Assembly (NCBI GenBank): GCA_036925085.1
Contig: JAUPFP010000002.1
Coordinates: 7,475,890-7,539,889, forward strand
Source: Brachycybe producta
Taxonomy: Eukaryota > Arthropoda > Diplopoda > Playtdesmida > Andrognathidae
Direction: 5' to 3'
Length of the DNA stretch: 64,000 nucleotides
Shown piece after piece: positions 31,620 to 58,284 of the stretch (positions are counted from its first letter, which is position 1; the number at the start of each line of letters is the position of its first letter). Position numbers and translations under genes: made by a program. The notes below the pieces were generated by a model that worked only from the letters and a program-made list of their open reading frames with translations, ran no database searches and was not told where the DNA came from.

Positions 31620-32230
31620 ATGTCACAAAAGATTTTTCTAATCGTGGCTTTTACTGTTTTGTTTGCCATTTTTTATGATCCTGACACTTTTGAACCTGAA
31701 TCAATTCGTGGCAAAAGAGTTCTTCTCACTGGGGCTTCTTCGGGCATTGGTGAGCAACTTGCCTATCATTACTCTACCATGGGTGCTTCTCTCGTAATAA
31801 CAGCTCGTCGAGAAGAATTACTAAAGATAGTGGCTTCGAAATGCAAAGAACTTGGTGCCACTACGGTCTGGTATGTTGTGGCTGACATGGGAAATCCAGA
31901 AGACAGAATTAGATTGGTTCAGGAGACAGAGAAACAACTTGGTGGCTTGGACCATCTCGTTTTGAACCATGCTATTTTAGAGTATTTCTTGTGGAAAGGA
32001 AGCACAAAAAACATGACCACATTAGAAAAAACTCTGAATATCAATTTCGTGTCTTTTGTTGATTTGGCTTCAAGGTGCCACGACATGTTGTCTGCTAGCA
32101 AAGGTAACATTGGTGTGGTGTCTTCTGCTGTCGGAAAGATTTCCTCAGCATTTTCTCATACGTACTCTGCTTCGAAACATGCTCTTCATGGATTTTTTAA
32201 TGGCTATCGTCAAGAATTGAAACATGCTGA

Positions 32231-32326
32231 AACTGGAATCTCTGTCACAATTTGTGTTCTGGGAGCCATTGACAATTCTCATTGTCAATGGCTCCCAGAA
32301 CACAAATTGTGACAGAGATTCCAGTT
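32231..32326. repeat. perfect 46-bp hairpin inside the dehydrogenase sequence
   Basis: Arms 32231-32276 and 32281-32326 are exact reverse complements separated by TCTC. The left arm is normal gene sequence (it encodes the TGISVTICVLGAIDN stretch); the right arm is its inverted copy and is absent from both intact paralogues. It looks like a fold-back template switch during replication. It is present in all 18 units (one base differs in the INN subtype). Confidence 0.97.
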
Positions 32327-32342
32327 CCAGTTCCAGTTCCAG
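32319..32342 (+). repeat. TTCCAG hexamer microsatellite (4 to 6 copies per unit)
   Basis: Directly after the right hairpin arm, TTCCAG is repeated four times here. It occurs four, five or six times in different units. Because the period is 6 nt, length changes do not alter the reading frame. It seems to have grown from the GATTCCAGTT end of the inverted arm. Confidence 0.95.
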
Positions 32343-32824
32343 AACACGATCGGATGCCATCGTTAAATCTACTTTTCCGAAACTAAAACTTTCTTCCATT
32401 TCTGCACCTTCTTCCAATGAGACTGCACTGGCAATTATCAAAGGTGTAACCAAAAGAGAATACGAAATCTATTATCCGTACAAAGTTTCTATCGTTTTGA
32501 ATTTGCACAAAATTATACCTCATTTTATTGAAGAAAAGATGGCTTTAGAGCACTTTAAGGGAACATAATTGTTTTTATTATGTCTTGGACGTGGAATATT
32601 TTTTTAATAAAATACAATGGGGACCACTTAATACAAAAATTAACGCATGAAACATTTTTTGTGTTAACCGAATTTCGCGTTAAAAGAAATAATTTTAAAA
32701 ATGCATGTTATTAACCATTTATAATACTACTATTAAAAATACATGTATATAAAATAATTAATGCGAATATTGTTATTAAAAATAACAAGTAAATATGGAG
32801 AAGTTAGTTAAAATAGGAGAAAGT

Positions 32825-33250
32825 AATATATATATATATATATATATATATCTATATATAGAGATATCGATAGATATCGATATATCGATGTCGAGATATC
32901 GATGTCGAGATATCGATATATCGATATATCGATGTATATATATATATATATATCGATATTTATATATCGATATTTCGATATCTATATATCGATATAGCTA
33001 TATCGATATATCGATATTGATATATCGATATATCGATATTGATATCGATATATCGATACATATAAATATCGATATATCGATATAGCTATATCGATATATC
33101 GATATCAGTATCAATATAGCTATATCGATATATCGATATCAATATCGATATATCGATATACCGATATCAATATCGCTATATCGATATAGCTATATCGATA
33201 TATAAATATCGATATATAAATATCGATATATCGATATCGATATATCGATA
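32825..33250. repeat. TATCGATA-type palindromic satellite spacer of unit 1
   Basis: Begins with a TA run after GGAGAAAGTAA, then CTATATATAGAGATATCGAT, then about 400 bp built almost wholly from overlapping TATCGATA and ATCGATAT steps broken by AGCTAT, TTGATA and TATAAATA variants. The sequence is self-complementary at most offsets. This spacer is unusual in carrying two GTCGAGATATCGAT motifs in a row. Homologous spacers follow every unit: 34274-34679, 35703-36110, 37128-37603, 38633-39150, 40174-40651, 41681-42108, 43126-43587, 44611-45054, 46078-46541, 47559-48012, 49042-49481, 50505-50950, 51980-52429, 53453-53890, 54914-55359, 56389-56834 and 57858-58284. Confidence 0.95.
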
Positions 33251-34017
33251 TCGAGAAGAATTACTAAAGATAGTGGCTTCGAAATGCAAAGAACTTGGTG
33301 CCACTACGGTCTGGTATGTTGTGGCTGACATGGGAAATCCAGAAGACAGAATTAGATTGGTTCAGGAGACAGAGAAACAACTTGGTGGCTTGGACCATCT
33401 CGTTTTGAACCATGCTATTTTAGAGTATTTCTTGTGGAAAGGAAGCACAAAAAACATGACCACATTAGAAAAAACTCTGAATATCAATTTCGTGTCTTTT
33501 GTTGATTTGGCTTCAAGGTGCCACGACATGTTGTCTGCTAGCAAAGGTAACATTGGTGTGGTGTCTTCTGCTGTCGGAAAGATTTCCTCAGCATTTTCTC
33601 ATACGTACTCTGCTTCGAAACATGCTCTTCATGGATTTTTTAATGGCTATCGTCAAGAATTGAAACATGCTGAAACTGGAATCTCTGTCACAATTTGTGT
33701 TCTGGGAGCCATTGACAATTCTCATTGTCAATGGCTCCCAGAACACAAATTGTGACAGAGATTCCAGTTCCAGTTCCAGTTCCAGTTCCAGAACACGATC
33801 GGATGCCATCGTTAAATCTACTTTTCCGAAACTAAAACTTTCTTCCATTTCTGCACCTTCTTCCAATGAGACTGCACTGGCAATTATCAAAGGTGTAACC
33901 AAAAGAGAATACGAAATCTATTATCCGTACAAAGTTTCTATCGTTTTGAATTTGCACAAAATTATACCTCATTTTATTGAAGAAAAGATGGCTTTAGAGC
34001 ACTTTAAGGGAACATAA
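33251..34017 (+). pseudogene. array unit 2, 5'-truncated dehydrogenase copy
   Basis: The sequence joins from satellite to gene at TCGAGAAGAATT, corresponding to about residue 63 of the full protein, so the anchor, the start codon and the TGxxxGIG cofactor motif are all gone. Subtype E/D (LEYF, IDN), five TTCCAG. Its spacer is almost identical to that of unit 3 and lacks the GTCGAG motif present in most other spacers. Confidence 0.95.
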
Positions 34018-34679
34018 TTGTTTTTATTATGTCTTGGATGTGGAATATTTTTTTAATAAAATACAATGGGGACCACTTAATACAAAAATTAACGCATGAA
34101 ACATTTTTTGTGTTAACCGAATTTCGCGTTAAAAGAAATAATTTTAAAAATGCATGTTATTAACCATTTATAATACTACTATTAAAAATACATGTATATA
34201 AAATAATTAATGCGAATATTGTTATTAAAAATAACAAGTAAATATGGAGAAGTTAGTTAAAATAGGAGAAAGTAATATATATATATATATATATCTATCT
34301 ATATATAGAGATATCGATAGATATCGATATATCGATGTATATATATCGATATATCGATGTATATATATCGATATATCGATATTTATATATCGATATATCG
34401 ATATCTATATATCGATATATATCTATATCGATATATCGATATTGCTATATCGATATATCGATATATAGATATTGATATATCGATATATCGATATTGATAT
34501 CGATATATCGATACATATAAATATCGATATATCGATATAGCTATATCGATATATCAATATCAGTATCGATATATCGATATATCGATATCAATATCGCTAT
34601 ATCGATATCGATATATCGATATAGCTATATCGATATATAAATATCGATATATAAATATCGATATATCGATATATCGATA

Positions 34680-35446
34680 TCGAGAAGAATTACTAAAGAT
34701 AGTGGCTTCGAAATGCAAAGAACTTGGTGCCACTACGGTCTGGTATGTTGTGGCTGACATGGGAAATCCAGAAGACAGAATTAGATTGGTTCAGGAGACA
34801 GAGAAACAACTTGGTGGCTTGGACCATCTCGTTTTGAACCATGCTATTTTAGAGTATTTCTTGTGGAAAGGAAGCACAAAAAACATGACCACATTAGAAA
34901 AAACTCTGAATATCAATTTCGTGTCTTTTGTTGATTTGGCTTCAAGGTGCCACGACATGTTGTCTGCTAGCAAAGGTAACATTGGTGTGGTGTCTTCTGC
35001 TGTCGGAAAGATTTCCTCAGCATTTTCTCATACGTACTCTGCTTCGAAACATGCTCTTCATGGATTTTTTAATGGCTATCGTCAAGAATTGAAACATGCT
35101 GAAACTGGAATCTCTGTCACAATTTGTGTTCTGGGAGCCATTGACAATTCTCATTGTCAATGGCTCCCAGAACACAAATTGTGACAGAGATTCCAGTTCC
35201 AGTTCCAGTTCCAGTTCCAGAACACGATCGGATGCCATCGTTAAATCTACTTTTCCGAAACTAAAACTTTCTTCCATTTCTGCACCTTCTTCCAATGAGA
35301 CTGCACTGGCAATTATCAAAGGTGTAACCAAAAGAGAATACGAAATCTATTATCCGTACAAAGTTTCTATCGTTTTGAATTTGCACAAAATTATACCTCA
35401 TTTTATTGAAGAAAAGATGGCTTTAGAGCACTTTAAGGGAACATAA
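34680..35446 (+). pseudogene. array unit 3, 5'-truncated dehydrogenase copy
   Basis: Subtype E/D, five TTCCAG. Unit length 1431 against 1429 for unit 2, and the same spacer apart from the TA-run length. Units 2 and 3 look like the product of a very recent single-unit duplication. Confidence 0.95.
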
Positions 35447-36110
35447 TTGTTTTTATTATGTCTTGGATGTGGAATATTTTTTTAATAAAATACAATGGGG
35501 ACCACTTAATACAAAAATTAACGCATGAAACATTTTTTGTGTTAACCGAATTTCGCGTTAAAAGAAATAATTTTAAAAATGCATGTTATTAACCATTTAT
35601 AATACTACTATTAAAAATACATGTATATAAAATAATTAATGCGAATATTGTTATTAAAAATAACAAGTAAATATGGAGAAGTTAGTTAAAATAGGAGAAA
35701 GTAATATATATATATATATATATATCTATCTATATATAGAGATATCGATAGATATCGATATATCGATGTATATATATCGATATATCGATGTATATATATC
35801 GATATATCGATATTTATATATCGATATATCGATATCTATATATCGATATATATCTATATCGATATATCGATATTGCTATATCGATATATCGATATATAGA
35901 TATTGATATATCGATATATCGATATTGATATCGATATATCGATACATATAAATATCGATATATCGATATAGCTATATCGATATATCAATATCAGTATCGA
36001 TATATCGATATATCGATATCAATATCGCTATATCGATATCGATATATCGATATAGCTATATCGATATATAAATATCGATATATAAATATCGATATATCGA
36101 TATATCGATA

Positions 36111-36871
36111 TCGAGAAGAATTACTAAAGATAGTGGCTTCGAAATGCAAAGAACTTGGTGCCACTACGGTCTGGTATGTTGTGGCTGACATGGGAAATCC
36201 AGAAGACAGAATTAGATTGGTTCAGGAGACAGAGAAACAACTTGGTGGCTTGGACCATCTCGTTTTGAACCATGCTATTTTAGAGTATTTCTTGTGGAAA
36301 GGAAGCACAAAAAACATGACCACATTAGAAAAAACTCTGAATATCAATTTCGTGTCTTTTGTTGATTTGGCTTCAAGGTGCCACGACATGTTGTCTGCTA
36401 GCAAAGGTAACATTGGTGTGGTGTCTTCTGCTGTCGGAAAGATTTCCTCAGCATTTTCTCATACGTACTCTGCTTCGAAACATGCTCTTCATGGATTTTT
36501 TAATGGCTATCGTCAAGAATTGAAACATGCTGAAACTGGAATCTCTGTCACAATTTGTGTTCTGGGAGCCATTGACAATTCTCATTGTCAATGGCTCCCA
36601 GAACACAAATTGTGACAGAGATTCCAGTTCCAGTTCCAGTTCCAGAACACGATCGGATGCCATCGTTAAATCTACTTTTCCGAAACTAAAACTTTCTTCC
36701 ATTTCTGCACCTTCTTCCAATGAGACTGCACTGGCAATTATCAAAGGTGTAACCAAAAGAGAATACGAAATCTATTATCCGTACAAAGTTTCTATCGTTT
36801 TGAATTTGCACAAAATTATACCTCATTTTATTGAAGAAAAGATGGCTTTAGAGCACTTTAAGGGAACATAA
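36111..36871 (+). pseudogene. array unit 4, 5'-truncated dehydrogenase copy
   Basis: Subtype E/D, four TTCCAG, as in units 1, 8 and 11. Its spacer contains the CAATAACGC variant that precedes most of the D/N-subtype units. Confidence 0.95.
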
Positions 36872-37603
36872 TTGTTTTTATTATGTCTTGGATGTGGAAT
36901 ATTTTTTTAATAAAATACAATGGGGACCACTTAATACAAAAATTAACGCATGAAACATTTTTTGTGTTAACCGAATTTCGCGTTAAAAGAAATAATTTTA
37001 AAAATGCATGTTATTAACCATTTATAATACTACTATTAAAAATACATGTATATAAAATAATTAATGCGAATATTGTTATTAAAAATAACAAGTAAATATG
37101 GAGAAGTTAGTTAAAATAGGAGAAAGTAATATATATATATATATATATCTATCTATATATAGAGATATCGATAGATATCGATATATGGATGTCGAGATAT
37201 CGATATATCGATATATCGATGTATATATCGATATATCGATATATCGATATTTATATATCGATATATCGATATCTATATATCGATATAGCTATATCGATAT
37301 ATCGATATTGATATATCGATATATTGATATATCGATATATCGATATCGATACATCGATATATCGATATTGATATATCGATATATCGATATTGATATATCG
37401 ATATATCGATATCGATACATATTAATATCGATATATCGATATAGCTATATCGATATATCGATATCAGTATCGATATATCGATATATCGATATCAATAACG
37501 CTATATCGATATAGCTATATTGATATCGATATATCGATATAGCTATATCGATATATAAATATCGATATATAAATATCGATATATCGATATCGATATATCG
37601 ATA

Positions 37604-38376
37604 TCGAGAAGAATTACTAAAGATAGTGGCTTCGAAATGCAAAGAACTTGGTGCCACTACGGTCTGGTATGTTGTGGCTGACATGGGAAATCCAGAAGAC
37701 AGAATTAGATTGGTTCAGGAGACAGAGAAACAACTTGGTGGCTTGGACCATCTCGTTTTGAACCATGCTATTTTAGATTATTTCTTGTGGAAAGGAAGCA
37801 CAAAAAACATGACCACATTAGAAAAAACTCTGAATATCAATTTCGTGTCTTTTGTTGATTTGGCTTCAAGGTGCCACGACATGTTGTCTGCTAGCAAAGG
37901 TAACATTGGTGTGGTGTCTTCTGCTGTCGGAAAGATTTCCTCAGCATTTTCTCATACGTACTCTGCTTCGAAACATGCTCTTCATGGATTTTTTAATGGC
38001 TATCGTCAAGAATTGAAACATGCTGAAACTGGAATCTCTGTCACAATTTGTGTTCTGGGAGCCATTAACAATTCTCATTGTCAATGGCTCCCAGAACACA
38101 AATTGTGACAGAGATTCCAGTTCCAGTTCCAGTTCCAGTTCCAGTTCCAGAACACGATCGGATGCCATCGTTAAATCTACTTTTCCGAAACTAAAACTTT
38201 CTTCCATTTCTGCACCTTCTTCCAATGAGACTGCACTGGCAATTATCAAAGGTGTAACCAAAAGAGAATACGAAATCTATTATCCGTACAAAGTTTCTAT
38301 CGTTTTGAATTTGCACAAAATTATACCTCATTTTATTGAAGAAAAGATGGCTTTAGAGCACTTTAAGGGAACATAA
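37604..38376 (+). pseudogene. array unit 5, 5'-truncated dehydrogenase copy
   Basis: First D/N-subtype unit: LDYF replaces LEYF, and INN replaces IDN at the hairpin. Six TTCCAG. The INN change puts a mismatch into the otherwise perfect hairpin. Its spacer is the longest in the array because it contains an inverted gene fragment. Confidence 0.95.
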
Positions 38377-38816
38377 TTGTTTTTATTATGTCTTGGATGT
38401 GGAATATTTTTTTAATAAAATACAATGGGGACCACTTAATACAAAAATTAACGCATGAAACATTTTTTGTGTTAACCGAATTTCGCGTTAAAAGAAATAA
38501 TTTTAAAAATGCATGTTATTAACCATTTATAATACTACTATTAAAAATACATGTATATAAAATAATTAATGCGAATATTGTTATTAAAAATAACAAGTAA
38601 ATATGGAGAAGTTAGTTAAAATAGGAGAAAGTAATATATATATATATATATCTATCTATATATAGAGATATCGATAGATATCGATATATCGATGTCGAGA
38701 TATCGATATATCGATGTATATATATATATCGATATATCGATATTTATATATTGATATATCGATATTTATATATCGATATATCGATATCTATATATCGATA
38801 TAGCTATATCGATATT

Positions 38817-38872
38817 GTGGCACCAAGTTCTTTGCATTTCGAAGCCACTATCTTTAGTAATTCTTCTCGATA
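38817..38872 (-). repeat. inverted dehydrogenase fragment inside the unit 5 spacer
   Basis: About 55 bp here is the exact reverse complement of the first gene bases of a unit, from TCGAGAAGAATT through CTTGGTGCCAC. It is flanked on both sides by TATCGATA satellite. Its right edge joins satellite at the same TCGA step as the forward junctions. It is the only inverted gene piece seen in the array. Confidence 0.95.
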
Positions 38873-39150
38873 TCGATATATCGATATCGATATATCGATA
38901 TTGATATATCGATATATCGATATTGATATATCGATATATCGATATATCGATATATCAATATATCGATATATCGATATAGCTATATCGATATATCGATATA
39001 GCTATATCGATATATCGATATCAGTATCGATATATCGATATCAATATCGATATCAATATCGCTATATCGATATCGATATATCGATATAGCTATATCGATA
39101 TATAAATATCGATATATAAATATCGATATATCGATATCGATATATCGATA

Positions 39151-39917
39151 TCGAGAAGAATTACTAAAGATAGTGGCTTCGAAATGCAAAGAACTTGGTG
39201 CCACTACGGTCTGGTATGTTGTGGCTGACATGGGAAATCCAGAAGACAGAATTAGATTGGTTCAGGAGACAGAGAAACAACTTGGTGGCTTGGACCATCT
39301 CGTTTTGAACCATGCTATTTTAGAGTATTTCTTGTGGAAAGGAAGCACAAAAAACATGACCACATTAGAAAAAACTCTGAATATCAATTTCGTGTCTTTT
39401 GTTGATTTGGCTTCAAGGTGCCACGACATGTTGTCTGCTAGCAAAGGTAACATTGGTGTGGTGTCTTCTGCTGTCGGAAAGATTTCCTCAGCATTTTCTC
39501 ATACGTACTCTGCTTCGAAACATGCTCTTCATGGATTTTTTAATGGCTATCGTCAAGAATTGAAACATGCTGAAACTGGAATCTCTGTCACAATTTGTGT
39601 TCTGGGAGCCATTGACAATTCTCATTGTCAATGGCTCCCAGAACACAAATTGTGACAGAGATTCCAGTTCCAGTTCCAGTTCCAGTTCCAGAACACGATC
39701 GGATGCCATCGTTAAATCTACTTTTCCGAAACTAAAACTTTCTTCCATTTCTGCACCTTCTTCCAATGAGACTGCACTGGCAATTATCAAAGGTGTAACC
39801 AAAAGAGAATACGAAATCTATTATCCGTACAAAGTTTCTATCGTTTTGAATTTGCACAAAATTATACCTCATTTTATTGAAGAAAAGATGGCTTTAGAGC
39901 ACTTTAAGGGAACATAA
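39151..39917 (+). pseudogene. array unit 6, 5'-truncated dehydrogenase copy
   Basis: Subtype E/D, five TTCCAG. Its spacer has a GATATCGGTATATCG variant shared with unit 10 and the CAATAACGC variant shared with unit 4. Confidence 0.95.
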
Positions 39918-40651
39918 TTGTTTTTATTATGTCTTGGATGTGGAATATTTTTTTAATAAAATACAATGGGGACCACTTAATACAAAAATTAACGCATGAA
40001 ACATTTTTTGTGTTAACCGAATTTCGCGTTAAAAGAAATAATTTTAAAAATGCATGTTATTAACCATTTATAATACTACTATTAAAAATACATGTATATA
40101 AAATAATTAATGCGAATATTGTTATTAAAAATAACAAGTAAATATGGAGAAGTTAGTTAAAATAGGAGAAAGTAATATATATATATATATATATCTATCT
40201 ATATATAGAGATATCGATAGATATCGATATATCGATGTCGAGATATCGGTATATCGATATATCGATGTATATATCGATATATCGATATATCGATATTTAT
40301 ATATCGATATATCGATATCTATATATCGATATAGCTATATCGATATATCGATATTGATATATCGATATATTGATATATCGATATATCGATATATTGATAT
40401 ATCGATATATCGATATTGATATATCGATATATCGATATTGATATATCGATATATCGATATCGATACATATTAATATCGATATATCGATATAGCTATATCG
40501 ATATATCGATATCAGTATCGATATATCGATATATCGATATCAATAACGCTATATCGATATAGCTATATCGATATCGATATATCGATATAGCTATATCGAT
40601 ATATAAATATCGATATATAAATATCGATATATCGATATCGATATATCGATA

Positions 40652-41424
40652 TCGAGAAGAATTACTAAAGATAGTGGCTTCGAAATGCAAAGAACTTGGT
40701 GCCACTACGGTCTGGTATGTTGTGGCTGACATGGGAAATCCAGAAGACAGAATTAGATTGGTTCAGGAGACAGAGAAACAACTTGGTGGCTTGGACCATC
40801 TCGTTTTGAACCATGCTATTTTAGATTATTTCTTGTGGAAAGGAAGCACAAAAAACATGACCACATTAGAAAAAACTCTGAATATCAATTTCGTGTCTTT
40901 TGTTGATTTGGCTTCAAGGTGCCACGACATGTTGTCTGCTAGCAAAGGTAACATTGGTGTGGTGTCTTCTGCTGTCGGAAAGATTTCCTCAGCATTTTCT
41001 CATACGTACTCTGCTTCGAAACATGCTCTTCATGGATTTTTTAATGGCTATCGTCAAGAATTGAAACATGCTGAAACTGGAATCTCTGTCACAATTTGTG
41101 TTCTGGGAGCCATTAACAATTCTCATTGTCAATGGCTCCCAGAACACAAATTGTGACAGAGATTCCAGTTCCAGTTCCAGTTCCAGTTCCAGTTCCAGAA
41201 CACGATCGGATGCCATCGTTAAATCTACTTTTCCGAAACTAAAACTTTCTTCCATTTCTGCACCTTCTTCCAATGAGACTGCACTGGCAATTATCAAAGG
41301 TGTAACCAAAAGAGAATACGAAATCTATTATCCGTACAAAGTTTCTATCGTTTTGAATTTGCACAAAATTATACCTCATTTTATTGAAGAAAAGATGGCT
41401 TTAGAGCACTTTAAGGGAACATAA
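40652..41424 (+). pseudogene. array unit 7, 5'-truncated dehydrogenase copy
   Basis: Subtype D/N, six TTCCAG. Its spacer contains GATATCTATATATTGATATAG and an extra GATATATCGATATC step just before the next gene junction. Confidence 0.94.
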
Positions 41425-42108
41425 TTGTTTTTATTATGTCTTGGATGTGGAATATTTTTTTAATAAAATACAATGGGGACCACTTAATACAAAAATTAAC
41501 GCATGAAACATTTTTTGTGTTAACCGAATTTCGCGTTAAAAGAAATAATTTTAAAAATGCATGTTATTAACCATTTATAATACTACTATTAAAAATACAT
41601 GTATATAAAATAATTAATGCGAATATTGTTATTAAAAATAACAAGTAAATATGGAGAAGTTAGTTAAAATAGGAGAAAGTAATATATATATATATATATA
41701 TCTATCTATATATAGAGATATCGATAGATATCGATATATCGATGTCGAGATATCGATATATCGATATATCGATGTATATATCGATATATCGATATATCGA
41801 TATTTATATATCGATATATCGATATCTATATATTGATATAGCTATATCGATATATCGATATTGATATATCGATATATCGATATCGATATATCGATATTGA
41901 TATATCTATATATCGATATCGATACATATTAATATCGATATAGCTATATCGATATATCGATATAGCTATATCGATATATCGATATCAGTATCGCTATCAA
42001 TATCGCTATATCGATATCGATATATCGATATAGCTATATCGATATATAAATATCGATATATAAATATCGATATATCGATATCGATATATCGATATCGATA
42101 TATCGATA

Positions 42109-42869
42109 TCGAGAAGAATTACTAAAGATAGTGGCTTCGAAATGCAAAGAACTTGGTGCCACTACGGTCTGGTATGTTGTGGCTGACATGGGAAATCCAG
42201 AAGACAGAATTAGATTGGTTCAGGAGACAGAGAAACAACTTGGTGGCTTGGACCATCTCGTTTTGAACCATGCTATTTTAGAGTATTTCTTGTGGAAAGG
42301 AAGCACAAAAAACATGACCACATTAGAAAAAACTCTGAATATCAATTTCGTGTCTTTTGTTGATTTGGCTTCAAGGTGCCACGACATGTTGTCTGCTAGC
42401 AAAGGTAACATTGGTGTGGTGTCTTCTGCTGTCGGAAAGATTTCCTCAGCATTTTCTCATACGTACTCTGCTTCGAAACATGCTCTTCATGGATTTTTTA
42501 ATGGCTATCGTCAAGAATTGAAACATGCTGAAACTGGAATCTCTGTCACAATTTGTGTTCTGGGAGCCATTGACAATTCTCATTGTCAATGGCTCCCAGA
42601 ACACAAATTGTGACAGAGATTCCAGTTCCAGTTCCAGTTCCAGAACACGATCGGATGCCATCGTTAAATCTACTTTTCCGAAACTAAAACTTTCTTCCAT
42701 TTCTGCACCTTCTTCCAATGAGACTGCACTGGCAATTATCAAATGTGTAACCAAAAGAGAATACGAAATCTATTATCCGTACAAAGTTTCTATCGTTTTG
42801 AATTTGCACAAAATTATACCTCATTTTATTGAAGAAAAGATGGCTTTAGAGCACTTTAAGGGAACATAA
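42109..42869 (+). pseudogene. array unit 8, 5'-truncated dehydrogenase copy
   Basis: Subtype E/D, four TTCCAG. It alone has AAATGTGTAACC where other units read AAAGGTGTAACC (Gly to Cys in the conceptual C terminus). Its 3' flank has GCGAATGTTG, shared only with units 9 and 10. Confidence 0.95.
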
Positions 42870-43587
42870 TTGTTTTTATTATGTCTTGGATGTGGAATAT
42901 TTTTTTAATAAAATACAATGGGGACCACTTAATACAAAAATTAACGCATGAAACATTTTTTGTGTTAACCGAATTTCGCGTTAAAAGAAATAATTTTAAA
43001 AATGCATGTTATTAACCATTTATAATACTACTATTAAAAATACATGTATATAAAATAATTAATGCGAATGTTGTTATTAAAAATAACAAGTAAATATGGA
43101 GAAGTTAGTTAAAATAGGAGAAAGTAATATATATATATATATATATCTATCTATATATAGAGATATCGATATATCGATGTCGAGATATCGATATATCGAT
43201 ATATCGATGTATATATATCGATATATCGATATTTATATATCGATATTTATATATCGATATATCGATATCTATATATCGATATAGCTATATCGATATATCG
43301 ATATTGATATATCGATATATCGATATTGATATATCGATATATCGATATTGATATATCGATATTGATATATCGATATATCGATATCGATACATATTAATAT
43401 CGATATATCGATATAGCTATATCGATATATCGATATAGCTATATCGATATATCGATATCAGTATCGATATATCGATATCAATATCGATATCAATATCGCT
43501 ATATCGATATCGATATATCGATATAACTATATCGATATATAAATATCGATATATAAATATCGATATATCGATATCGATATATCGATA

Positions 43588-44609: not shown

Positions 44610-44649
<40 letters not shown>

Positions 44650-45821: not shown

Positions 45822-46541
45822 TTGTTTTTATTATGTCTTGGATGTGGAATATTTTTTTAATAAAATACAATGGGGACCACTTAATACAAAAATTAACGCA
45901 TGAAACATTTTTTGTGTTAACCGAATTTCGCGTTAAAAGAAATAATTTTAAAAATGCATGTTATTAACCATTTATAATACTACTATTAAAAATACATGTA
46001 TATAAAATAATTAATGCGAATGTTGTTATTAAAAATAACAAGTAAATATGGAGAAGTTAGTTAAAATAGGAGAAAGTAATATATATATATATATATATCT
46101 ATCTATATATAGAGATATCGATAGATATCGATATATCGATGTCGAGATATCGGTATATCGATATATCGATGTATATATCGATATATCGATATATCGATAT
46201 TTATATATCGATATATCGATATCTATATATCGATATAGCTATATCGATATATCGATATTGATATATCGATATATCGATATTGATATATCGATATATCGAT
46301 ATCGATATATCGATATTGATATATCGATATATCGATATCGATACATATTAATATCGATATATCGATATAGCTATATCGATATATCGATATAGCTATATCG
46401 ATATATCGATATCAGTATCGATATATCGATATCAATATCGATATCAATATCGCTATATCGATATCGATATATCGATATAGCTATATCGATATATAAATAT
46501 CGATATATAAATATCGATATATCGATATCGATATATCGATA

Positions 46542-47302
46542 TCGAGAAGAATTACTAAAGATAGTGGCTTCGAAATGCAAAGAACTTGGTGCCACTACGG
46601 TCTGGTATGTTGTGGCTGACATGGGAAATCCAGAAGACAGAATTAGATTGGTTCAGGAGACAGAGAAACAACTTGGTGGCTTGGACCATCTCGTTTTGAA
46701 CCATGCTATTTTAGAGTATTTCTTGTGGAAAGGAAGCACAAAAAACATGACCACATTAGAAAAAACTCTGAATATCAATTTCGTGTCTTTTGTTGATTTG
46801 GCTTCAAGGTGCCACGACATGTTGTCTGCTAGCAAAGGTAACATTGGTGTGGTGTCTTCTGCTGTCGGAAAGATTTCCTCAGCATTTTCTCATACGTACT
46901 CTGCTTCGAAACATGCTCTTCATGGATTTTTTAATGGCTATCGTCAAGAATTGAAACATGCTGAAACTGGAATCTCTGTCACAATTTGTGTTCTGGGAGC
47001 CATTGACAATTCTCATTGTCAATGGCTCCCAGAACACAAATTGTGACAGAGATTCCAGTTCCAGTTCCAGTTCCAGAACACGATCGGATGCCATCGTTAA
47101 ATCTACTTTTCCGAAACTAAAACTTTCTTCCATTTCTGCACCTTCTTCCAATGAGACTGCACTGGCAATTATCAAAGGTGTAACCAAAAGAGAATACGAA
47201 ATCTATTATCCGTACAAAGTTTCTATCGTTTTGAATTTGCACAAAATTATACCTCATTTTATTGAAGAAAAGATGGCTTTAGAGCACTTTAAGGGAACAT
47301 AA
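46542..47302 (+). pseudogene. array unit 11, 5'-truncated dehydrogenase copy
   Basis: Subtype E/D, four TTCCAG. The flank returns to GCGAATATTG. Its spacer contains CAATAACGC and precedes a D/N unit, the same arrangement as unit 4. Confidence 0.95.
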
Positions 47303-48012
47303 TTGTTTTTATTATGTCTTGGATGTGGAATATTTTTTTAATAAAATACAATGGGGACCACTTAATACAAAAATTAACGCATGAAACATTTTTTGTGTTA
47401 ACCGAATTTCGCGTTAAAAGAAATAATTTTAAAAATGCATGTTATTAACCATTTATAATACTACTATTAAAAATACATGTATATAAAATAATTAATGCGA
47501 ATATTGTTATTAAAAATAACAAGTAAATATGGAGAAGTTAGTTAAAATAGGAGAAAGTAATATATATATATATATATATCTATCTATATATAGAGATATC
47601 GATAGATATCGATATATCGATGTCGAGATATCGATATATCGATATATCGATGTATATATCGATATATCGATATTTATATATCGATATATCGATATCTATA
47701 TATCGATATAGCTATATCGATATATCGATATTGATATATCGATATATCGATATATCGATATCGATACATCGATACATCGATATATCGATATTGATATATC
47801 GATATATCGATATTGATATATCGATATATCGATATCGATACATATTAATATCGATATATCGATATAGCTATATCGATATATCGATATCAGTATCGATATA
47901 TCGATATATCGATATCAATAACGCTATATCGATATCGATATATCGATATAGCTATATCGATATATAAATATCGATATATAAATATCGATATATCGATATC
48001 GATATATCGATA

Positions 48013-48785
48013 TCGAGAAGAATTACTAAAGATAGTGGCTTCGAAATGCAAAGAACTTGGTGCCACTACGGTCTGGTATGTTGTGGCTGACATGGGAAAT
48101 CCAGAAGACAGAATTAGATTGGTTCAGGAGACAGAGAAACAACTTGGTGGCTTGGACCATCTCGTTTTGAACCATGCTATTTTAGATTATTTCTTGTGGA
48201 AAGGAAGCACAAAAAACATGACCACATTAGAAAAAACTCTGAATATCAATTTCGTGTCTTTTGTTGATTTGGCTTCAAGGTGCCACGACATGTTGTCTGC
48301 TAGCAAAGGTAACATTGGTGTGGTGTCTTCTGCTGTCGGAAAGATTTCCTCAGCATTTTCTCATACGTACTCTGCTTCGAAACATGCTCTTCATGGATTT
48401 TTTAATGGCTATCGTCAAGAATTGAAACATGCTGAAACTGGAATCTCTGTCACAATTTGTGTTCTGGGAGCCATTAACAATTCTCATTGTCAATGGCTCC
48501 CAGAACACAAATTGTGACAGAGATTCCAGTTCCAGTTCCAGTTCCAGTTCCAGTTCCAGAACACGATCGGATGCCATCGTTAAATCTACTTTTCCGAAAC
48601 TAAAACTTTCTTCCATTTCTGCACCTTCTTCCAATGAGACTGCACTGGCAATTATCAAAGGTGTAACCAAAAGAGAATACGAAATCTATTATCCGTACAA
48701 AGTTTCTATCGTTTTGAATTTGCACAAAATTATACCTCATTTTATTGAAGAAAAGATGGCTTTAGAGCACTTTAAGGGAACATAA
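48013..48785 (+). pseudogene. array unit 12, 5'-truncated dehydrogenase copy
   Basis: Subtype D/N, six TTCCAG. Its spacer closely resembles that of unit 15, including a TATCAATATATCGATATA step. Confidence 0.95.
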
Positions 48786-49481
48786 TTGTTTTTATTATGT
48801 CTTGGATGTGGAATATTTTTTTAATAAAATACAATGGGGACCACTTAATACAAAAATTAACGCATGAAACATTTTTTGTGTTAACCGAATTTCGCGTTAA
48901 AAGAAATAATTTTAAAAATGCATGTTATTAACCATTTATAATACTACTATTAAAAATACATGTATATAAAATAATTAATGCGAATATTGTTATTAAAAAT
49001 AACAAGTAAATATGGAGAAGTTAGTTAAAATAGGAGAAAGTAATATATATATATATATATCTATCTATATATAGAGATATCGATAGATATCGATATATCG
49101 ATGTCGAGATATCGATATATCGATATATCGATGTATATATATCGATATATCGATGTATATATATATCGATATATCGATATTTATATATCGATATATCGAT
49201 ATCTATATATCGATATAGCTATATCGATATATTGATATATCGATATATCGATATTGATATATCGATATATCGATATATCGATATATCAATATATCGATAT
49301 ATCGATATAGCTATATCGATATATCGATATAGCTATATCGATATATCGATATCAGTATCGATATATCGATATCAATATCGATATCAATATCGCTATATCG
49401 ATATCGATATATCGATATAGCTATATCGATATATAAATATCGATATATAAATATCGATATATCGATATCGATATATCGATA

Positions 49482-50248
49482 TCGAGAAGAATTACTAAAG
49501 ATAGTGGCTTCGAAATGCAAAGAACTTGGTGCCACTACGGTCTGGTATGTTGTGGCTGACATGGGAAATCCAGAAGACAGAATTAGATTGGTTCAGGAGA
49601 CAGAGAAACAACTTGGTGGCTTGGACCATCTCGTTTTGAACCATGCTATTTTAGAGTATTTCTTGTGGAAAGGAAGCACAAAAAACATGACCACATTAGA
49701 AAAAACTCTGAATATCAATTTCGTGTCTTTTGTTGATTTGGCTTCAAGGTGCCACGACATGTTGTCTGCTAGCAAAGGTAACATTGGTGTGGTGTCTTCT
49801 GCTGTCGGAAAGATTTCCTCAGCATTTTCTCATACGTACTCTGCTTCGAAACATGCTCTTCATGGATTTTTTAATGGCTATCGTCAAGAATTGAAACATG
49901 CTGAAACTGGAATCTCTGTCACAATTTGTGTTCTGGGAGCCATTGACAATTCTCATTGTCAATGGCTCCCAGAACACAAATTGTGACAGAGATTCCAGTT
50001 CCAGTTCCAGTTCCAGTTCCAGAACACGATCGGATGCCATCGTTAAATCTACTTTTCCGAAACTAAAACTTTCTTCCATTTCTGCACCTTCTTCCAATGA
50101 GACTGCACTGGCAATTATCAAAGGTGTAACCAAAAGAGAATACGAAATCTATTATCCGTACAAAGTTTCTATCGTTTTGAATTTGCACAAAATTATACCT
50201 CATTTTATTGAAGAAAAGATGGCTTTAGAGCACTTTAAGGGAACATAA
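49482..50248 (+). pseudogene. array unit 13, 5'-truncated dehydrogenase copy
   Basis: Subtype E/D, five TTCCAG. Its spacer appears identical to that of unit 16, including a TATCGCTATCAGTATCG variant seen nowhere else. Confidence 0.95.
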
Positions 50249-50950
50249 TTGTTTTTATTATGTCTTGGATGTGGAATATTTTTTTAATAAAATACAATGG
50301 GGACCACTTAATACAAAAATTAACGCATGAAACATTTTTTGTGTTAACCGAATTTCGCGTTAAAAGAAATAATTTTAAAAATGCATGTTATTAACCATTT
50401 ATAATACTACTATTAAAAATACATGTATATAAAATAATTAATGCGAATATTGTTATTAAAAATAACAAGTAAATATGGAGAAGTTAGTTAAAATAGGAGA
50501 AAGTAATATATATATATATATATATCTATCTATATATAGAGATATCGATAGATATCGATATATCGATGTCGAGATATCGATATATCGATGTATATATATA
50601 TATCGATATATCGATATATCGATATATCGATATCTATATATCGATATAGCTATATCGATATATCGATATTGATATATCGATATATTGATATATCGATATA
50701 TCGATATTGATATATCGATATATCGATATTGATATATCGATATATCGATATTGATATATCGATATATCGATATCGATACATATTAATATCGATATATCGA
50801 TATAGCTATATCGATATATCGCTATCAGTATCGATATATCGATATATCGATATCAATAACGCTATATCGATATAGCTATATCGATATCGATATATCGATA
50901 TAGCTATATCGATATATAAATATCGATATATCGATATCGATATATCGATA

Positions 50951-51723
50951 TCGAGAAGAATTACTAAAGATAGTGGCTTCGAAATGCAAAGAACTTGGTG
51001 CCACTACGGTCTGGTATGTTGTGGCTGACATGGGAAATCCAGAAGACAGAATTAGATTGGTTCAGGAGACAGAGAAACAACTTGGTGGCTTGGACCATCT
51101 CGTTTTGAACCATGCTATTTTAGATTATTTCTTGTGGAAAGGAAGCACAAAAAACATGACCACATTAGAAAAAACTCTGAATATCAATTTCGTGTCTTTT
51201 GTTGATTTGGCTTCAAGGTGCCACGACATGTTGTCTGCTAGCAAAGGTAACATTGGTGTGGTGTCTTCTGCTGTCGGAAAGATTTCCTCAGCATTTTCTC
51301 ATACGTACTCTGCTTCGAAACATGCTCTTCATGGATTTTTTAATGGCTATCGTCAAGAATTGAAACATGCTGAAACTGGAATCTCTGTCACAATTTGTGT
51401 TCTGGGAGCCATTAACAATTCTCATTGTCAATGGCTCCCAGAACACAAATTGTGACAGAGATTCCAGTTCCAGTTCCAGTTCCAGTTCCAGTTCCAGAAC
51501 ACGATCGGATGCCATCGTTAAATCTACTTTTCCGAAACTAAAACTTTCTTCCATTTCTGCACCTTCTTCCAATGAGACTGCACTGGCAATTATCAAAGGT
51601 GTAACCAAAAGAGAATACGAAATCTATTATCCGTACAAAGTTTCTATCGTTTTGAATTTGCACAAAATTATACCTCATTTTATTGAAGAAAAGATGGCTT
51701 TAGAGCACTTTAAGGGAACATAA
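50951..51723 (+). pseudogene. array unit 14, 5'-truncated dehydrogenase copy
   Basis: Subtype D/N, six TTCCAG. Its spacer closely matches that of unit 17 (GATATTGATATC steps and a triple TATAGCTATATCG run). Confidence 0.95.
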
Positions 51724-52429
51724 TTGTTTTTATTATGTCTTGGATGTGGAATATTTTTTTAATAAAATACAATGGGGACCACTTAATACAAAAATTAACG
51801 CATGAAACATTTTTTGTGTTAACCGAATTTCGCGTTAAAAGAAATAATTTTAAAAATGCATGTTATTAACCATTTATAATACTACTATTAAAAATACATG
51901 TATATAAAATAATTAATGCGAATATTGTTATTAAAAATAACAAGTAAATATGGAGAAGTTAGTTAAAATAGGAGAAAGTAATATATATATATATATATAT
52001 ATATCTATCTATATATAGAGATATCGATAGATATCGATATATCGATGTCGAGATATCGATATATCGATATATCGATGTATATATATCGATATATCGATAT
52101 TTATATATCGATATCTATATATATCGATATAGCTATATCGATATATCGATATATCGATATTGATATATCGATATATCGATATTGATATATCGATATATCG
52201 ATATATTGATATCTATATATCGATATATTGATATCGATATATCGATATCGATACATATAAATATCGATATATCGATATAGCTATATCGATATATCGATAT
52301 CAGTATCGATATATCGATATCAATATCGATATCGATATAGCTATATCGATATAGCTATATCGATATAGCTATATCGATATATAAATATCGATATATAAAT
52401 ATCGATATATCGATATCGATATATCGATA

Positions 52430-53196
52430 TCGAGAAGAATTACTAAAGATAGTGGCTTCGAAATGCAAAGAACTTGGTGCCACTACGGTCTGGTATGTTG
52501 TGGCTGACATGGGAAATCCAGAAGACAGAATTAGATTGGTTCAGGAGACAGAGAAACAACTTGGTGGCTTGGACCATCTCGTTTTGAACCATGCTATTTT
52601 AGATTATTTCTTGTGGAAAGGAAGCACAAAAAACATGACCACATTAGAAAAAACTCTGAATATCAATTTCGTGTCTTTTGTTGATTTGGCTTCAAGGTGC
52701 CACGACATGTTGTCTGCTAGCAAAGGTAACATTGGTGTGGTGTCTTCTGCTGTCGGAAAGATTTCCTCAGCATTTTCTCATACGTACTCTGCTTCGAAAC
52801 ATGCTCTTCATGGATTTTTTAATGGCTATCGTCAAGAATTGAAACATGCTGAAACTGGAATCTCTGTCACAATTTGTGTTCTGGGAGCCATTAACAATTC
52901 TCATTGTCAATGGCTCCCAGAACACAAATTGTGACAGAGATTCCAGTTCCAGTTCCAGTTCCAGTTCCAGAACACGATCGGATGCCATCGTTAAATCTAC
53001 TTTTCCGAAACTAAAACTTTCTTCCATTTCTGCACCTTCTTCCAATGAGACTGCACTGGCAATTATCAAAGGTGTAACCAAAAGAGAATACGAAATCTAT
53101 TATCCGTACAAAGTTTCTATCGTTTTGAATTTGCACAAAATTATACCTCATTTTATTGAAGAAAAGATGGCTTTAGAGCACTTTAAGGGAACATAA
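52430..53196 (+). pseudogene. array unit 15, 5'-truncated dehydrogenase copy
   Basis: Subtype D/N but with five TTCCAG, a combination otherwise seen only in unit 18. Starts the second copy of a three-unit higher-order block (units 12-14 against 15-17). Confidence 0.95.
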
Positions 53197-53890
53197 TTGT
53201 TTTTATTATGTCTTGGATGTGGAATATTTTTTTAATAAAATACAATGGGGACCACTTAATACAAAAATTAACGCATGAAACATTTTTTGTGTTAACCGAA
53301 TTTCGCGTTAAAAGAAATAATTTTAAAAATGCATGTTATTAACCATTTATAATACTACTATTAAAAATACATGTATATAAAATAATTAATGCGAATATTG
53401 TTATTAAAAATAACAAGTAAATATGGAGAAGTTAGTTAAAATAGGAGAAAGTAATATATATATATATATATCTATCTATATATAGAGATATCGATAGATA
53501 TCGATATATCGATGTCGAGATATCGATATATCGATATATCGATGTATATATATCGATATATCGATGTATATATATCGATATATCGATATTTATATATCGA
53601 TATATCGATATCTATATATCGATATAGCTATATCGATATATTGATATATCGATATATCGATATTGATATATCGATATATCGATATATCGATATATCAATA
53701 TATCGATATATCGATATAGCTATATCGATATATCGATATAGCTATATCGATATATCGATATCAGTATCGATATATCGATATCAATATCGATATCAATATC
53801 GCTATATCGATATCGATATATCGATATAGCTATATCGATATATAAATATCGATATATAAATATCGATATATCGATATCGATATATCGATA

Positions 53891-54657
53891 TCGAGAAGAA
53901 TTACTAAAGATAGTGGCTTCGAAATGCAAAGAACTTGGTGCCACTACGGTCTGGTATGTTGTGGCTGACATGGGAAATCCAGAAGACAGAATTAGATTGG
54001 TTCAGGAGACAGAGAAACAACTTGGTGGCTTGGACCATCTCGTTTTGAACCATGCTATTTTAGAGTATTTCTTGTGGAAAGGAAGCACAAAAAACATGAC
54101 CACATTAGAAAAAACTCTGAATATCAATTTCGTGTCTTTTGTTGATTTGGCTTCAAGGTGCCACGACATGTTGTCTGCTAGCAAAGGTAACATTGGTGTG
54201 GTGTCTTCTGCTGTCGGAAAGATTTCCTCAGCATTTTCTCATACGTACTCTGCTTCGAAACATGCTCTTCATGGATTTTTTAATGGCTATCGTCAAGAAT
54301 TGAAACATGCTGAAACTGGAATCTCTGTCACAATTTGTGTTCTGGGAGCCATTGACAATTCTCATTGTCAATGGCTCCCAGAACACAAATTGTGACAGAG
54401 ATTCCAGTTCCAGTTCCAGTTCCAGTTCCAGAACACGATCGGATGCCATCGTTAAATCTACTTTTCCGAAACTAAAACTTTCTTCCATTTCTGCACCTTC
54501 TTCCAATGAGACTGCACTGGCAATTATCAAAGGTGTAACCAAAAGAGAATACGAAATCTATTATCCGTACAAAGTTTCTATCGTTTTGAATTTGCACAAA
54601 ATTATACCTCATTTTATTGAAGAAAAGATGGCTTTAGAGCACTTTAAGGGAACATAA
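53891..54657 (+). pseudogene. array unit 16, 5'-truncated dehydrogenase copy
   Basis: Subtype E/D, five TTCCAG; the last E/D unit. Unit length is 1469, equal to that of unit 13, its counterpart. Confidence 0.95.
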
Positions 54658-55359
54658 TTGTTTTTATTATGTCTTGGATGTGGAATATTTTTTTAATAAA
54701 ATACAATGGGGACCACTTAATACAAAAATTAACGCATGAAACATTTTTTGTGTTAACCGAATTTCGCGTTAAAAGAAATAATTTTAAAAATGCATGTTAT
54801 TAACCATTTATAATACTACTATTAAAAATACATGTATATAAAATAATTAATGCGAATATTGTTATTAAAAATAACAAGTAAATATGGAGAAGTTAGTTAA
54901 AATAGGAGAAAGTAATATATATATATATATATATCTATCTATATATAGAGATATCGATAGATATCGATATATCGATGTCGAGATATCGATATATCGATGT
55001 ATATATATATATCGATATATCGATATATCGATATATCGATATCTATATATCGATATAGCTATATCGATATATCGATATTGATATATCGATATATTGATAT
55101 ATCGATATATCGATATTGATATATCGATATATCGATATTGATATATCGATATATCGATATTGATATATCGATATATCGATATCGATACATATTAATATCG
55201 ATATATCGATATAGCTATATCGATATATCGCTATCAGTATCGATATATCGATATATCGATATCAATAACGCTATATCGATATAGCTATATCGATATCGAT
55301 ATATCGATATAGCTATATCGATATATAAATATCGATATATCGATATCGATATATCGATA

Positions 55360-56132
55360 TCGAGAAGAATTACTAAAGATAGTGGCTTCGAAATGCAAAG
55401 AACTTGGTGCCACTACGGTCTGGTATGTTGTGGCTGACATGGGAAATCCAGAAGACAGAATTAGATTGGTTCAGGAGACAGAGAAACAACTTGGTGGCTT
55501 GGACCATCTCGTTTTGAACCATGCTATTTTAGATTATTTCTTGTGGAAAGGAAGCACAAAAAACATGACCACATTAGAAAAAACTCTGAATATCAATTTC
55601 GTGTCTTTTGTTGATTTGGCTTCAAGGTGCCACGACATGTTGTCTGCTAGCAAAGGTAACATTGGTGTGGTGTCTTCTGCTGTCGGAAAGATTTCCTCAG
55701 CATTTTCTCATACGTACTCTGCTTCGAAACATGCTCTTCATGGATTTTTTAATGGCTATCGTCAAGAATTGAAACATGCTGAAACTGGAATCTCTGTCAC
55801 AATTTGTGTTCTGGGAGCCATTAACAATTCTCATTGTCAATGGCTCCCAGAACACAAATTGTGACAGAGATTCCAGTTCCAGTTCCAGTTCCAGTTCCAG
55901 TTCCAGAACACGATCGGATGCCATCGTTAAATCTACTTTTCCGAAACTAAAACTTTCTTCCATTTCTGCACCTTCTTCCAATGAGACTGCACTGGCAATT
56001 ATCAAAGGTGTAACCAAAAGAGAATACGAAATCTATTATCCGTACAAAGTTTCTATCGTTTTGAATTTGCACAAAATTATACCTCATTTTATTGAAGAAA
56101 AGATGGCTTTAGAGCACTTTAAGGGAACATAA
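55360..56132 (+). pseudogene. array unit 17, 5'-truncated dehydrogenase copy
   Basis: Subtype D/N, six TTCCAG; counterpart of unit 14, from which its spacer differs by TA-run length and a TA step. Confidence 0.95.
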
Positions 56133-56834
56133 TTGTTTTTATTATGTCTTGGATGTGGAATATTTTTTTAATAAAATACAATGGGGACCACTTAATACAA
56201 AAATTAACGCATGAAACATTTTTTGTGTTAACCGAATTTCGCGTTAAAAGAAATAATTTTAAAAATGCATGTTATTAACCATTTATAATACTACTATTAA
56301 AAATACATGTATATAAAATAATTAATGCGAATATTGTTATTAAAAATAACAAGTAAATATGGAGAAGTTAGTTAAAATAGGAGAAAGTAATATATATATA
56401 TATATATATATCTATCTATATATAGAGATATCGATAGATATCGATATATCGATGTCGAGATATCGATATATCGATATATCGATGTATATATATCGATATA
56501 TCGATATTTATATATCGATATCTATATATCGATATAGCTATATCGATATATCGATATATCGATATTGATATATCGATATATCGATATTGATATATCGATA
56601 TATCGATATATTGATATCTATATATCGATATATTGATATCGATATATCGATATCGATACATATAAATATCGATATATCGATATAGCTATATCGATATATC
56701 GATATCAGTATCGATATATCGATATCAATATCGATATCGATATAGCTATATCGATATAGCTATATCGATATAGCTATATCGATATATAAATATCGATATA
56801 TAAATATCGATATATCGATATCGATATATCGATA

Positions 56835-57601
56835 TCGAGAAGAATTACTAAAGATAGTGGCTTCGAAATGCAAAGAACTTGGTGCCACTACGGTCTGGTA
56901 TGTTGTGGCTGACATGGGAAATCCAGAAGACAGAATTAGATTGGTTCAGGAGACAGAGAAACAACTTGGTGGCTTGGACCATCTCGTTTTGAACCATGCT
57001 ATTTTAGATTATTTCTTGTGGAAAGGAAGCACAAAAAACATGACCACATTAGAAAAAACTCTGAATATCAATTTCGTGTCTTTTGTTGATTTGGCTTCAA
57101 GGTGCCACGACATGTTGTCTGCTAGCAAAGGTAACATTGGTGTGGTGTCTTCTGCTGTCGGAAAGATTTCCTCAGCATTTTCTCATACGTACTCTGCTTC
57201 GAAACATGCTCTTCATGGATTTTTTAATGGCTATCGTCAAGAATTGAAACATGCTGAAACTGGAATCTCTGTCACAATTTGTGTTCTGGGAGCCATTAAC
57301 AATTCTCATTGTCAATGGCTCCCAGAACACAAATTGTGACAGAGATTCCAGTTCCAGTTCCAGTTCCAGTTCCAGAACACGATCGGATGCCATCGTTAAA
57401 TCTACTTTTCCGAAACTAAAACTTTCTTCCATTTCTGCACCTTCTTCCAATGAGACTGCACTGGCAATTATCAAAGGTGTAACCAAAAGAGAATACGAAA
57501 TCTATTATCCGTACAAAGTTTCTATCGTTTTGAATTTGCACAAAATTATACCTCATTTTATTGAAGAAAAGATGGCTTTAGAGCACTTTAAGGGAACATA
57601 A
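56835..57601 (+). pseudogene. array unit 18, last 5'-truncated dehydrogenase copy
   Basis: Subtype D/N, five TTCCAG. Its normal 3' flank is followed by a spacer unlike the others, which ends the array instead of leading into another gene copy. Confidence 0.95.
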
Positions 57602-57856
57602 TTGTTTTTATTATGTCTTGGATGTGGAATATTTTTTTAATAAAATACAATGGGGACCACTTAATACAAAAATTAACGCATGAAACATTTTTTGTGTTAA
57701 CCGAATTTCGCGTTAAAAGAAATAATTTTAAAAATGCATGTTATTAACCATTTATAATACTACTATTAAAAATACATGTATATAAAATAATTAATGCGAA
57801 TATTGTTATTAAAAATAACAAGTAAATATGGAGAAGTTAGTTAAAATAGGAGAAAG

Positions 57857-57857
<1 letters not shown>

Positions 57858-57920
<63 letters not shown>

Positions 57921-58284
57921 AGATATCGATAGATATCGATATATCGATGTCGAGATATCGATATTTATATATCGATATATCGATATCGATATCGATATCG
58001 ATATCGATATCGATATCGATATATCGATATTTATATATCGATATATTGATATCGATATCGATATATAAATATCGATATATCGATATAGCTATATCGATAT
58101 AGCTATATCGATATATAAATATCGATATAGCTATATCGATATAGCTGTATCGATATATAAATATCGATATATCGATATCGATATATCGATATCGATATAT
58201 CGATATAGCTATATCGATATATATAAATATCGATATATCGATATCTCGACATCGATATATCGATATCTATCGATATCTAGATAT
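57858..58284. repeat. terminal palindromic spacer closing the array
   Basis: A TA run of about 60 bp is followed by CTAGATATCGATAGATATCG at 57919, and the block ends with the reverse complement of that sequence at 58280. The first 46 bp or so of each end are perfect inverted repeats including the GTCGAG/CTCGAC motif, and the inner sequence stays roughly mirror-like. A GATATC run of about eight steps lies near 57982-58020. No gene junction follows. Confidence 0.9.

Follow-up and report, generated by a model that had tools for sequence, protein, structure and literature searches.

The locus described here raises the question of how part of a protein-coding gene came to be repeated many times over, in broken form, next to intact relatives of the same gene. 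The window (the whole stretch of DNA that was analysed, 64,000 nucleotides in length) contains no N, and the features discussed below are collected in Table 1.

The array and its gene family

Self-BLAST and anchored segmentation divided positions 31809–58284 of the assembly into 18 head-to-tail units with lengths of 1429–1547 bp (n = 18), and an anchor placed at the satellite boundary matched once per unit (18 matches in total), which bears out the arrangement proposed in a first-pass annotation of this DNA. Each unit joins about 1.0 kb of an HSD11B1-like gene to 407–519 bp of a self-complementary AT satellite. The 5′ part of the gene, with the ATG at 31620, precedes unit 1 only, again as proposed, and 17 of the 18 units have no 5′ end. 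The repeated piece had been described as the 3′ two thirds of an SDR gene; it is indeed a 3′ fragment, but nearer to three quarters, since the units begin at codon 64 of approximately 293. Head-to-tail units of more than 1 kb, present in many copies of high identity, place the locus among macrosatellites or gene-derived tandem arrays, and the term macrosatellite is a fair one for the unit size, though 18 copies are few.

Table 1. Positions of the array, its internal features and the neighbouring intact paralogues within the window.
Feature	Position	Strand	Remarks
5′ ORF of unit 1	31620..32312	+	230 codons, SDR domain; ends just past hairpin; sole array copy with ATG and 5′ flank
Unit 1	31809..33251	+	1443 bp
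Hairpin of unit 1	32231..32326	+	46-bp perfect arms, 4-base loop
71 extra bases, unit 1	32277..32347	+	intact paralogues such as 69197 have few bases (GAGAGA-like) there
AATAAA 3′ of gene end, unit 1	32606..32611	+	context in 18/18 units; counterpart at matching place in paralogue 69197
Self-complementary AT satellite, unit 1	32825..33251	+	
Units 2–17	33252..56835	+	each begins at CGAGAAGAATTAC fused to satellite ...CGATAT
Exact inverted duplicate (86 bp) of the junction between units 5 and 6, covering gene start and satellite	38817..38902	+	unit 5 only
Three-unit block duplication, U12–U14 versus U15–U17	48014..56835	+	
Unit 18	56836..58293	+	other sequence beyond satellite right arm
Intact HSD11B1-like paralogue	59335..60216	+	294 codons; hairpin 21-mers matching 0/26
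Intact HSD11B1-like paralogue	62792..63670	+	293 codons; hairpin arm present 46/46

The gene parts of the units vary at five single-base sites and in the count of a hexamer (4–6), giving seven distinct gene parts next to 17 distinct satellites among the 18 units. Substitutions between units average 1.5 per approximately 1 kb, against a dS of 0.09 to the nearest paralogue, which fits the recent expansion or homogenisation suggested earlier; gene conversion in an older array could be an alternative source of the low diversity of the gene parts.

The gene family forms a cluster over 124 kb: nine ORFs of 291–295 codons are intact, a further full-length copy is broken and one member is a fragment. 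Two intact neighbours had been reported, which is correct for the window (59335 and 62792) and too low for the cluster, which extends past it. Paralogue 62792 carries the SDR domain PF00106 (E 8e-36), and its closest solved relatives are HSD11B1 structures (E 4e-49, with the next SDR group at 2e-17), supporting the proposal that a broken HSD11B1-like gene has become a tandem array beside intact paralogues. In the family tree, unit 1 falls among paralogues 59335, 62792, and 69197 with no single nearest one separated, and its 5′ flank resembles that of 62792.

Inverted copies in the gene part and in the satellite

All 18 units possess a hairpin inside the gene part, with perfect arms of 46 bp in 11 units and of 40 bp in the other seven, which have one mismatch in common. 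When positions 32180–32380 of unit 1 were folded as RNA, the energy was −106 kcal/mol (z −15.7) and 0 of 200 shuffles were equal or better. The first 50 of the 71 extra bases are the exact reverse complement of the adjoining gene sequence in the version carried by paralogue 69197, a match that includes the loop-forming bases, and the remainder consists mostly of TTCCAG repeats. An exact reverse-complement copy of adjacent sequence that replaces local bases is the mark of a template switch, and from this sequence signature we infer a single event.

The hairpin arm is identical to two intact paralogues at 46 of 46 bases. Counted as 21-mers, all 26 match in intact 62792 and 69197, 15 in 84339 and 91867, and nine in the broken copy 81477, while there are no matches among the 26 in intact 59335, 88214, 95742, 98411, and 101147 or in the gene fragment. 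A genome-wide search allowing up to three mismatches placed the forward arm in the 18 array units and five paralogues, with none outside this cluster, and the inverted arm at 18 sites, all in the array (control 0). As a background, hairpins were counted with an arm of at least 18, a loop of at most 20 and an arm G+C of at least 25%, overlapping hits being reduced to the longest: the 124-kb cluster region contained 51, of which 50 lie within the array, and 13 other loci (approximately 102 kb), which were picked for AT matches and hence are no random sample, contained two. The longest hairpin arm outside the array was 28.

The AT satellite had been called palindromic, and its self-complementarity is strong: the DNA fold gave a z of −11.4 for unit 1 and −16.7 for unit 18, the two units folded, and in neither did any of 100 shuffles fold as well. 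A right arm is confined to unit 18, where 53 bases (58235–58287) are the exact inverse of 57912–57964, as expected if unit 18 is the original end. A 37-base satellite motif, searched in the genome with up to three mismatches, had 178 occurrences among the matches listed (control 0), and the count within the array is 94 + 84 = 178, indicating that the motif is restricted to the array. A dispersed satellite or transposon, considered as a candidate, is countered by these same counts. An initial DNA search had given many AT places elsewhere, with 39 of 245 candidates scored, so that its counts are lower bounds. Thirteen such places (L016–L028) were inspected; the motif filter found AT blocks in 11, which by eye are of other make-up, with short CGATATAT-like stretches in L017 and L024, and found no AT block in L027 and L028.

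Additional to the first-pass annotation are the hairpin shared by all units, the identity of its arm to two intact paralogues, the junction copied in inverse orientation in unit 5 and the nine-member intact cluster.

Origin of the array and alternative explanations

We consider it probable that this is a pseudogene array which arose from errors of DNA replication and repair at self-complementary DNA. A template switch during replication in one copy of the HSD11B1-like cluster would have copied 50 bases backwards, leaving a hairpin with 46-bp arms and a broken frame. The hairpin would be older than the amplification, since it is present in all 18 units including the sole one with a 5′ end. An AT palindrome would then have arisen in the 3′ flank of the broken gene, and a tandem duplication would have fused it to codon 64, perhaps at a microhomology of 2–4 bp (TC or TCGA). 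Unequal exchange among units may have brought their number to 18, as the close identity of U12–U14 to U15–U17 and of U2 to U3 suggests; the former pair of blocks would reflect a late duplication of three units together, and the palindrome appears to be mutating fast still, including a further template switch in unit 5. The sequence itself shows the inverted copies, the junctions between units and the duplicated block; the order of the first three steps and their enzymology are as we would reconstruct them. The path from gene to satellite is legible stepwise: a mutation broke the gene, a junction made the unit, a block of units was duplicated late and one unit recently acquired an inversion. 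In humans, palindromic AT-rich repeats (PATRR) mediate translocations; they likewise consist of self-complementary AT DNA, several hundred bases long, where a rearrangement was joined, whereas the event proposed here would be a tandem duplication. On our best reading the array is explicable without any function, and a protein function is unlikely.

Some doubt is left by the possibility, which we regard as unlikely though the strongest of the alternatives, that the array is a young hpRNA locus: transcripts of unit 1 or of the whole array would fold at the 46-bp hairpin, and small RNAs made by Dicer would silence the paralogues that match the arm, more units presumably meaning a larger dose. Such loci are recognised by an inverted repeat with a long near-perfect stem and by perfect identity of the stem to another gene across 21 bases or more, and both features are present, as are the low folding energy, the graded 21-mer matches to siblings and the confinement of the arm to this cluster. 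The five intact paralogues and the fragment that share no 21-mer (five of nine intact copies) speak against it, as does the arm mismatch in seven units, and a chance template switch yields an identical hairpin without function. For transcription, unit 1 retains a 62792-like 5′ flank and an AATAAA, but 17 of 18 units have no 5′ end, and the AATAAA context in all 18 would end a read-through transcript, which argues somewhat against read-through. Two loci in the genome carry Dicer-dimer domains and five places carry Piwi domains, of which perhaps not all are functional genes, because a stop interrupts some of the Piwi matches. A search of the host genome for RdRP gave no match, and the controls likewise gave none. 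In its fullest form, which we hold slightly more doubtful again, this would be a newborn hpRNA system near its origin, in which one template switch made a hairpin against some siblings and tandem amplification by the AT palindrome made a candidate self-made silencer of a steroid-dehydrogenase-like family outside Drosophila. The locus offers a test of whether hairpin-RNA loci can be created by template switching combined with tandem amplification, because its arm retains identity to two intact paralogues along its full 46 bases.

An assembly artefact, in which the animal has fewer units and the count was inflated or two haplotypes were joined, is improbable. No difference separates U13 from U16 across 1469 bp, and the two could be one stretch assembled twice, and the pairs U12/U15, U14/U17, and U2/U3 differ by short AT or hexamer indels only (8, 4, and 2 bp, respectively), so assembly could contribute in part to the array length and the U13/U16 identity. 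However, 17 of 18 satellites are distinct, unit 5 has its private 86-bp inverted copy, other sequence flanks the array on both sides in the 13.96-Mb contig, and excluding U15–U17 and U3 still leaves at least 14 distinct units.

An expressed repeat of the Stellate kind, with protein-making units amplified by conflict, is very improbable: the units are gene-derived and tandem, and both reading-frame pieces are open in 18/18, as expected of so uniform an array, but the ATG and 5′ flank are absent from 17 units, the hairpin breaks the frame in every one, contrary to a repeat in which each unit is an expressible coding gene, and all three variable sites in the coding part alter the amino acid, which gives no sign of constraint, although three sites are too few to establish its absence.

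Relation to known systems

Stellate had been named as the nearest precedent, for which it is less apt given the missing 5′ ends and broken frames; in structure, Drosophila tandem hpRNA clusters are nearer. In D. melanogaster, hp-CG4068 comprises 20 copies in tandem, and in D. simulans the 13 units of the hp-tHMG-cluster occupy approximately 27 kb next to full-length paralogues; for such clusters siRNAs and Dcr-2 dependence have been measured, and copy number differs among species (PMC10317233). The architecture of our array is close to both, with near-identical tandem units and an inverted repeat in each, and, as in hp-tHMG, the source of the repeat is a protein gene whose full-length paralogues adjoin it. 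Unlike these clusters, our array has a 0.4-kb AT palindrome per unit; its stem is 46 bp.

Template-switch mutations can in one event produce a reverse-complement copy beside its source and thereby a perfect stem (PMC8794818). The hairpin reported here has the same make-up; those cases concern RNA genes, whereas here a protein gene was broken and the product then amplified. Stellate repeats encode protein, are expressed on derepression and are silenced by piRNAs from the homologous Su(Ste) repeats (PMC7874207). The Stellate/Su(Ste) system of D. melanogaster shares with our array the gene-derived tandem repeats, the Su(Ste) unit includes an AT-rich region, and silencing acts between homologous repeats by way of small RNAs; however, each Stellate unit is a protein-coding gene that has a promoter and lies on a sex chromosome, and the present array consists of a broken fragment (PMC7874207).

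Literature searches on gene-fragment macrosatellites and on palindromic AT repeats with tandem duplication gave nothing that we recognised as this array among the matches listed, which is no firm statement on what is in print, and those on HSD11B1 in chelicerates or mites and on de novo miRNAs by template switching likewise gave nothing so recognised among the matches listed. Rfam had no matches in the 64-kb window at gathering score and ARAGORN found no tRNAs. An arthropod is the likely source of this genome, whose mitochondrial contig (C442) translates well under the invertebrate code and has a rearranged gene order.

Layout of the array and its gene cluster

In the 295-Mb assembly of 442 contigs, the window (C2:7475890–7539889) carries 18 head-to-tail units at 31809–58284, each of 1429–1547 bp, as resolved by self-BLAST and anchor segmentation; this bears out the first-pass annotation, which had described a broken HSD11B1-like gene amplified into an 18-unit satellite. 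A unit joins a gene part (~1.0 kb) to an AT satellite (407–519 bp), and the 5′ part of the gene (ATG at 31620) precedes unit 1 alone, as had been claimed. The near-identity that had been taken as a sign of recent expansion or homogenization was also recovered, with five single-base sites and 0–2 hexamers varying among the gene parts; the original observation is confirmed and sharpened. There are seven distinct gene parts, with a mean of 1.5 substitutions per pair over ~1 kb, while 17 of the 18 satellites are distinct. Unit 1 stands at a dS of 0.09 from its closest paralogue. The array is either young or homogenized in its gene parts. Three of the five variable sites are coding and all three alter the amino acid, which gives no hint of protein constraint, three sites being little proof.

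The HSD11B1-like cluster (paralogues are named by start position counted from the first base of the window, also beyond its edge) extends past the window edge. Outside the array, tblastn over 124 kb identified ten full-length copies and one fragment, with intact ORFs of 291–295 codons in nine of the ten. The top solved relatives of paralogue 62792 are HSD11B1 (E 4e-49), followed by a group at 2e-17. Gene-part matches from the genome DNA search lie on C2, with 39 of 245 candidates scored and copies elsewhere possible. The pairs 84339/88214 and 91867/95742 are spaced alike, 7528 bp apart, and a single residue distinguishes 88214 from 95742.

Features of the cluster, the window, and other contigs (plain positions are within the window)
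Feature	Position	Details
HSD11B1-like paralogue	62792–63670	SDR, PF00106, E 8e-36
Broken full-length paralogue	C2:7557366	Stop after 50 codons
3′ fragment, same cluster	C2:7565641	
7.5-kb block with two HSD11B1-like genes (loci L012, L013)	C2:7560228–7572500	Apparently duplicated
Piece of unit 1 5′ flank	31248–31336	80% copy at 58972–59054, between array end and next intact paralogue
Hairpin upstream of window, outside array (locus L015)	C2:7474776–7474835	28-bp arms, 4-base loop
Tandem repeat from window start	1–304	16-bp unit, 18.9 copies, 99% matches
Repeat	15815–16284	Three copies of 164-bp unit, 83% matches
Frame with part of rhodopsin-family GPCR	19392–20045, minus	PF00001, E 2.6e-24; resembles a neuropeptide receptor
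COX1 copy, near full-length (22-Mb contig C1)	C1:12697416–12698753	One TAA

Origin and growth of the array

The gene was broken at 32277–32347, where unit 1 contains 71 bases in place of the short GAGAGA-like stretch of the paralogues. The first 50, those of the loop among them, are the exact reverse complement of the adjoining gene sequence in the version carried by paralogue 69197, and the remainder is mostly TTCCAG repeats. Template-switch mutation leaves a reverse-complement copy of this kind, according to one report (PMC8794818), and the exact 50-base copy points to such an event. The resulting hairpin pairs 46-bp arms around a 4-base loop; its RNA fold has z −15.7, equalled or bettered by none of 200 shuffles. 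It is found in all 18 units, with perfect 46-bp arms in 11 and, owing to one shared G-to-A change within the arm, 40-bp perfect arms in seven. Since unit 1 has it too, the hairpin is older than the amplification.

Internal units end in ...CGATAT, after which the sequence resumes with CGAGAAGAATTAC at gene codon 64; the satellite's right-hand arm (53 bases, the exact inverse of the left arm) occurs only in unit 18. The simplest reading would be a single tandem duplication between a full palindrome and the gene at 2–4 shared bases, after which unequal exchange would have followed. Units 13 and 16 are identical, and units 14/17 and 12/15 differ by 4 and 8 bp, in indels only, which marks late duplication of a three-unit block; units 2 and 3 differ by 2 bp. 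Unit 5 alone contains an inverted, exact 86-bp copy of the unit 5/unit 6 junction: template switching continued after array formation. The satellite motif is confined to the array, as its 178 genome-wide matches equal the 178 counted there. The whole is most likely a young array of pseudogenes, made at self-complementary DNA through template switching and unequal exchange.

Possible action through hairpin RNA

What is unusual is a hairpin in every unit that matches intact sibling genes. The array might act through RNA like a hairpin-RNA (hpRNA) locus, a reading of the sequence that we regard as unlikely. The arm is identical to intact paralogues 62792 and 69197 at 46/46 bases, so that each of these matches every one of its 26 21-mers; 15 are common to 84339 and 91867, and nine to the broken 81477, but none matches 59335, 88214, 95742, 98411, 101147, or the fragment at C2:7565641. 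Genome-wide (≤3 mismatches), the arm has 23 forward matches (18 units and five paralogues) and 18 reverse matches, in units only (control, 0). The genome has two loci with Dicer-dimer domains and five places with Piwi domains, some of these interrupted by a stop, and the 5′ flank of unit 1 resembles that of 62792 (83% over 31422–31550). The architecture is close to that of tandem hpRNA clusters of Drosophila, as portrayed in one study (PMC10317233): hp-CG4068, with 20 copies in D. melanogaster and nine in D. simulans, and the hp-tHMG-cluster, with 13 units in ~27 kb accompanied by full-length paralogues. Against such a role, 17 of the 18 units lack the 5′ end, all 18 carry an AATAAA context that would terminate a read-through transcript, and a chance template switch is expected to give the same picture.

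Mitochondrial sequences

The mitochondrial contig (C442, 15,359 bp) has a rearranged gene order, with nad4 and nad5 presumably on the cox1 strand; the ARAGORN list has no tRNA-Leu between cox1 and cox2. The COX1 copy on C1 is probably nuclear, given its TAA.
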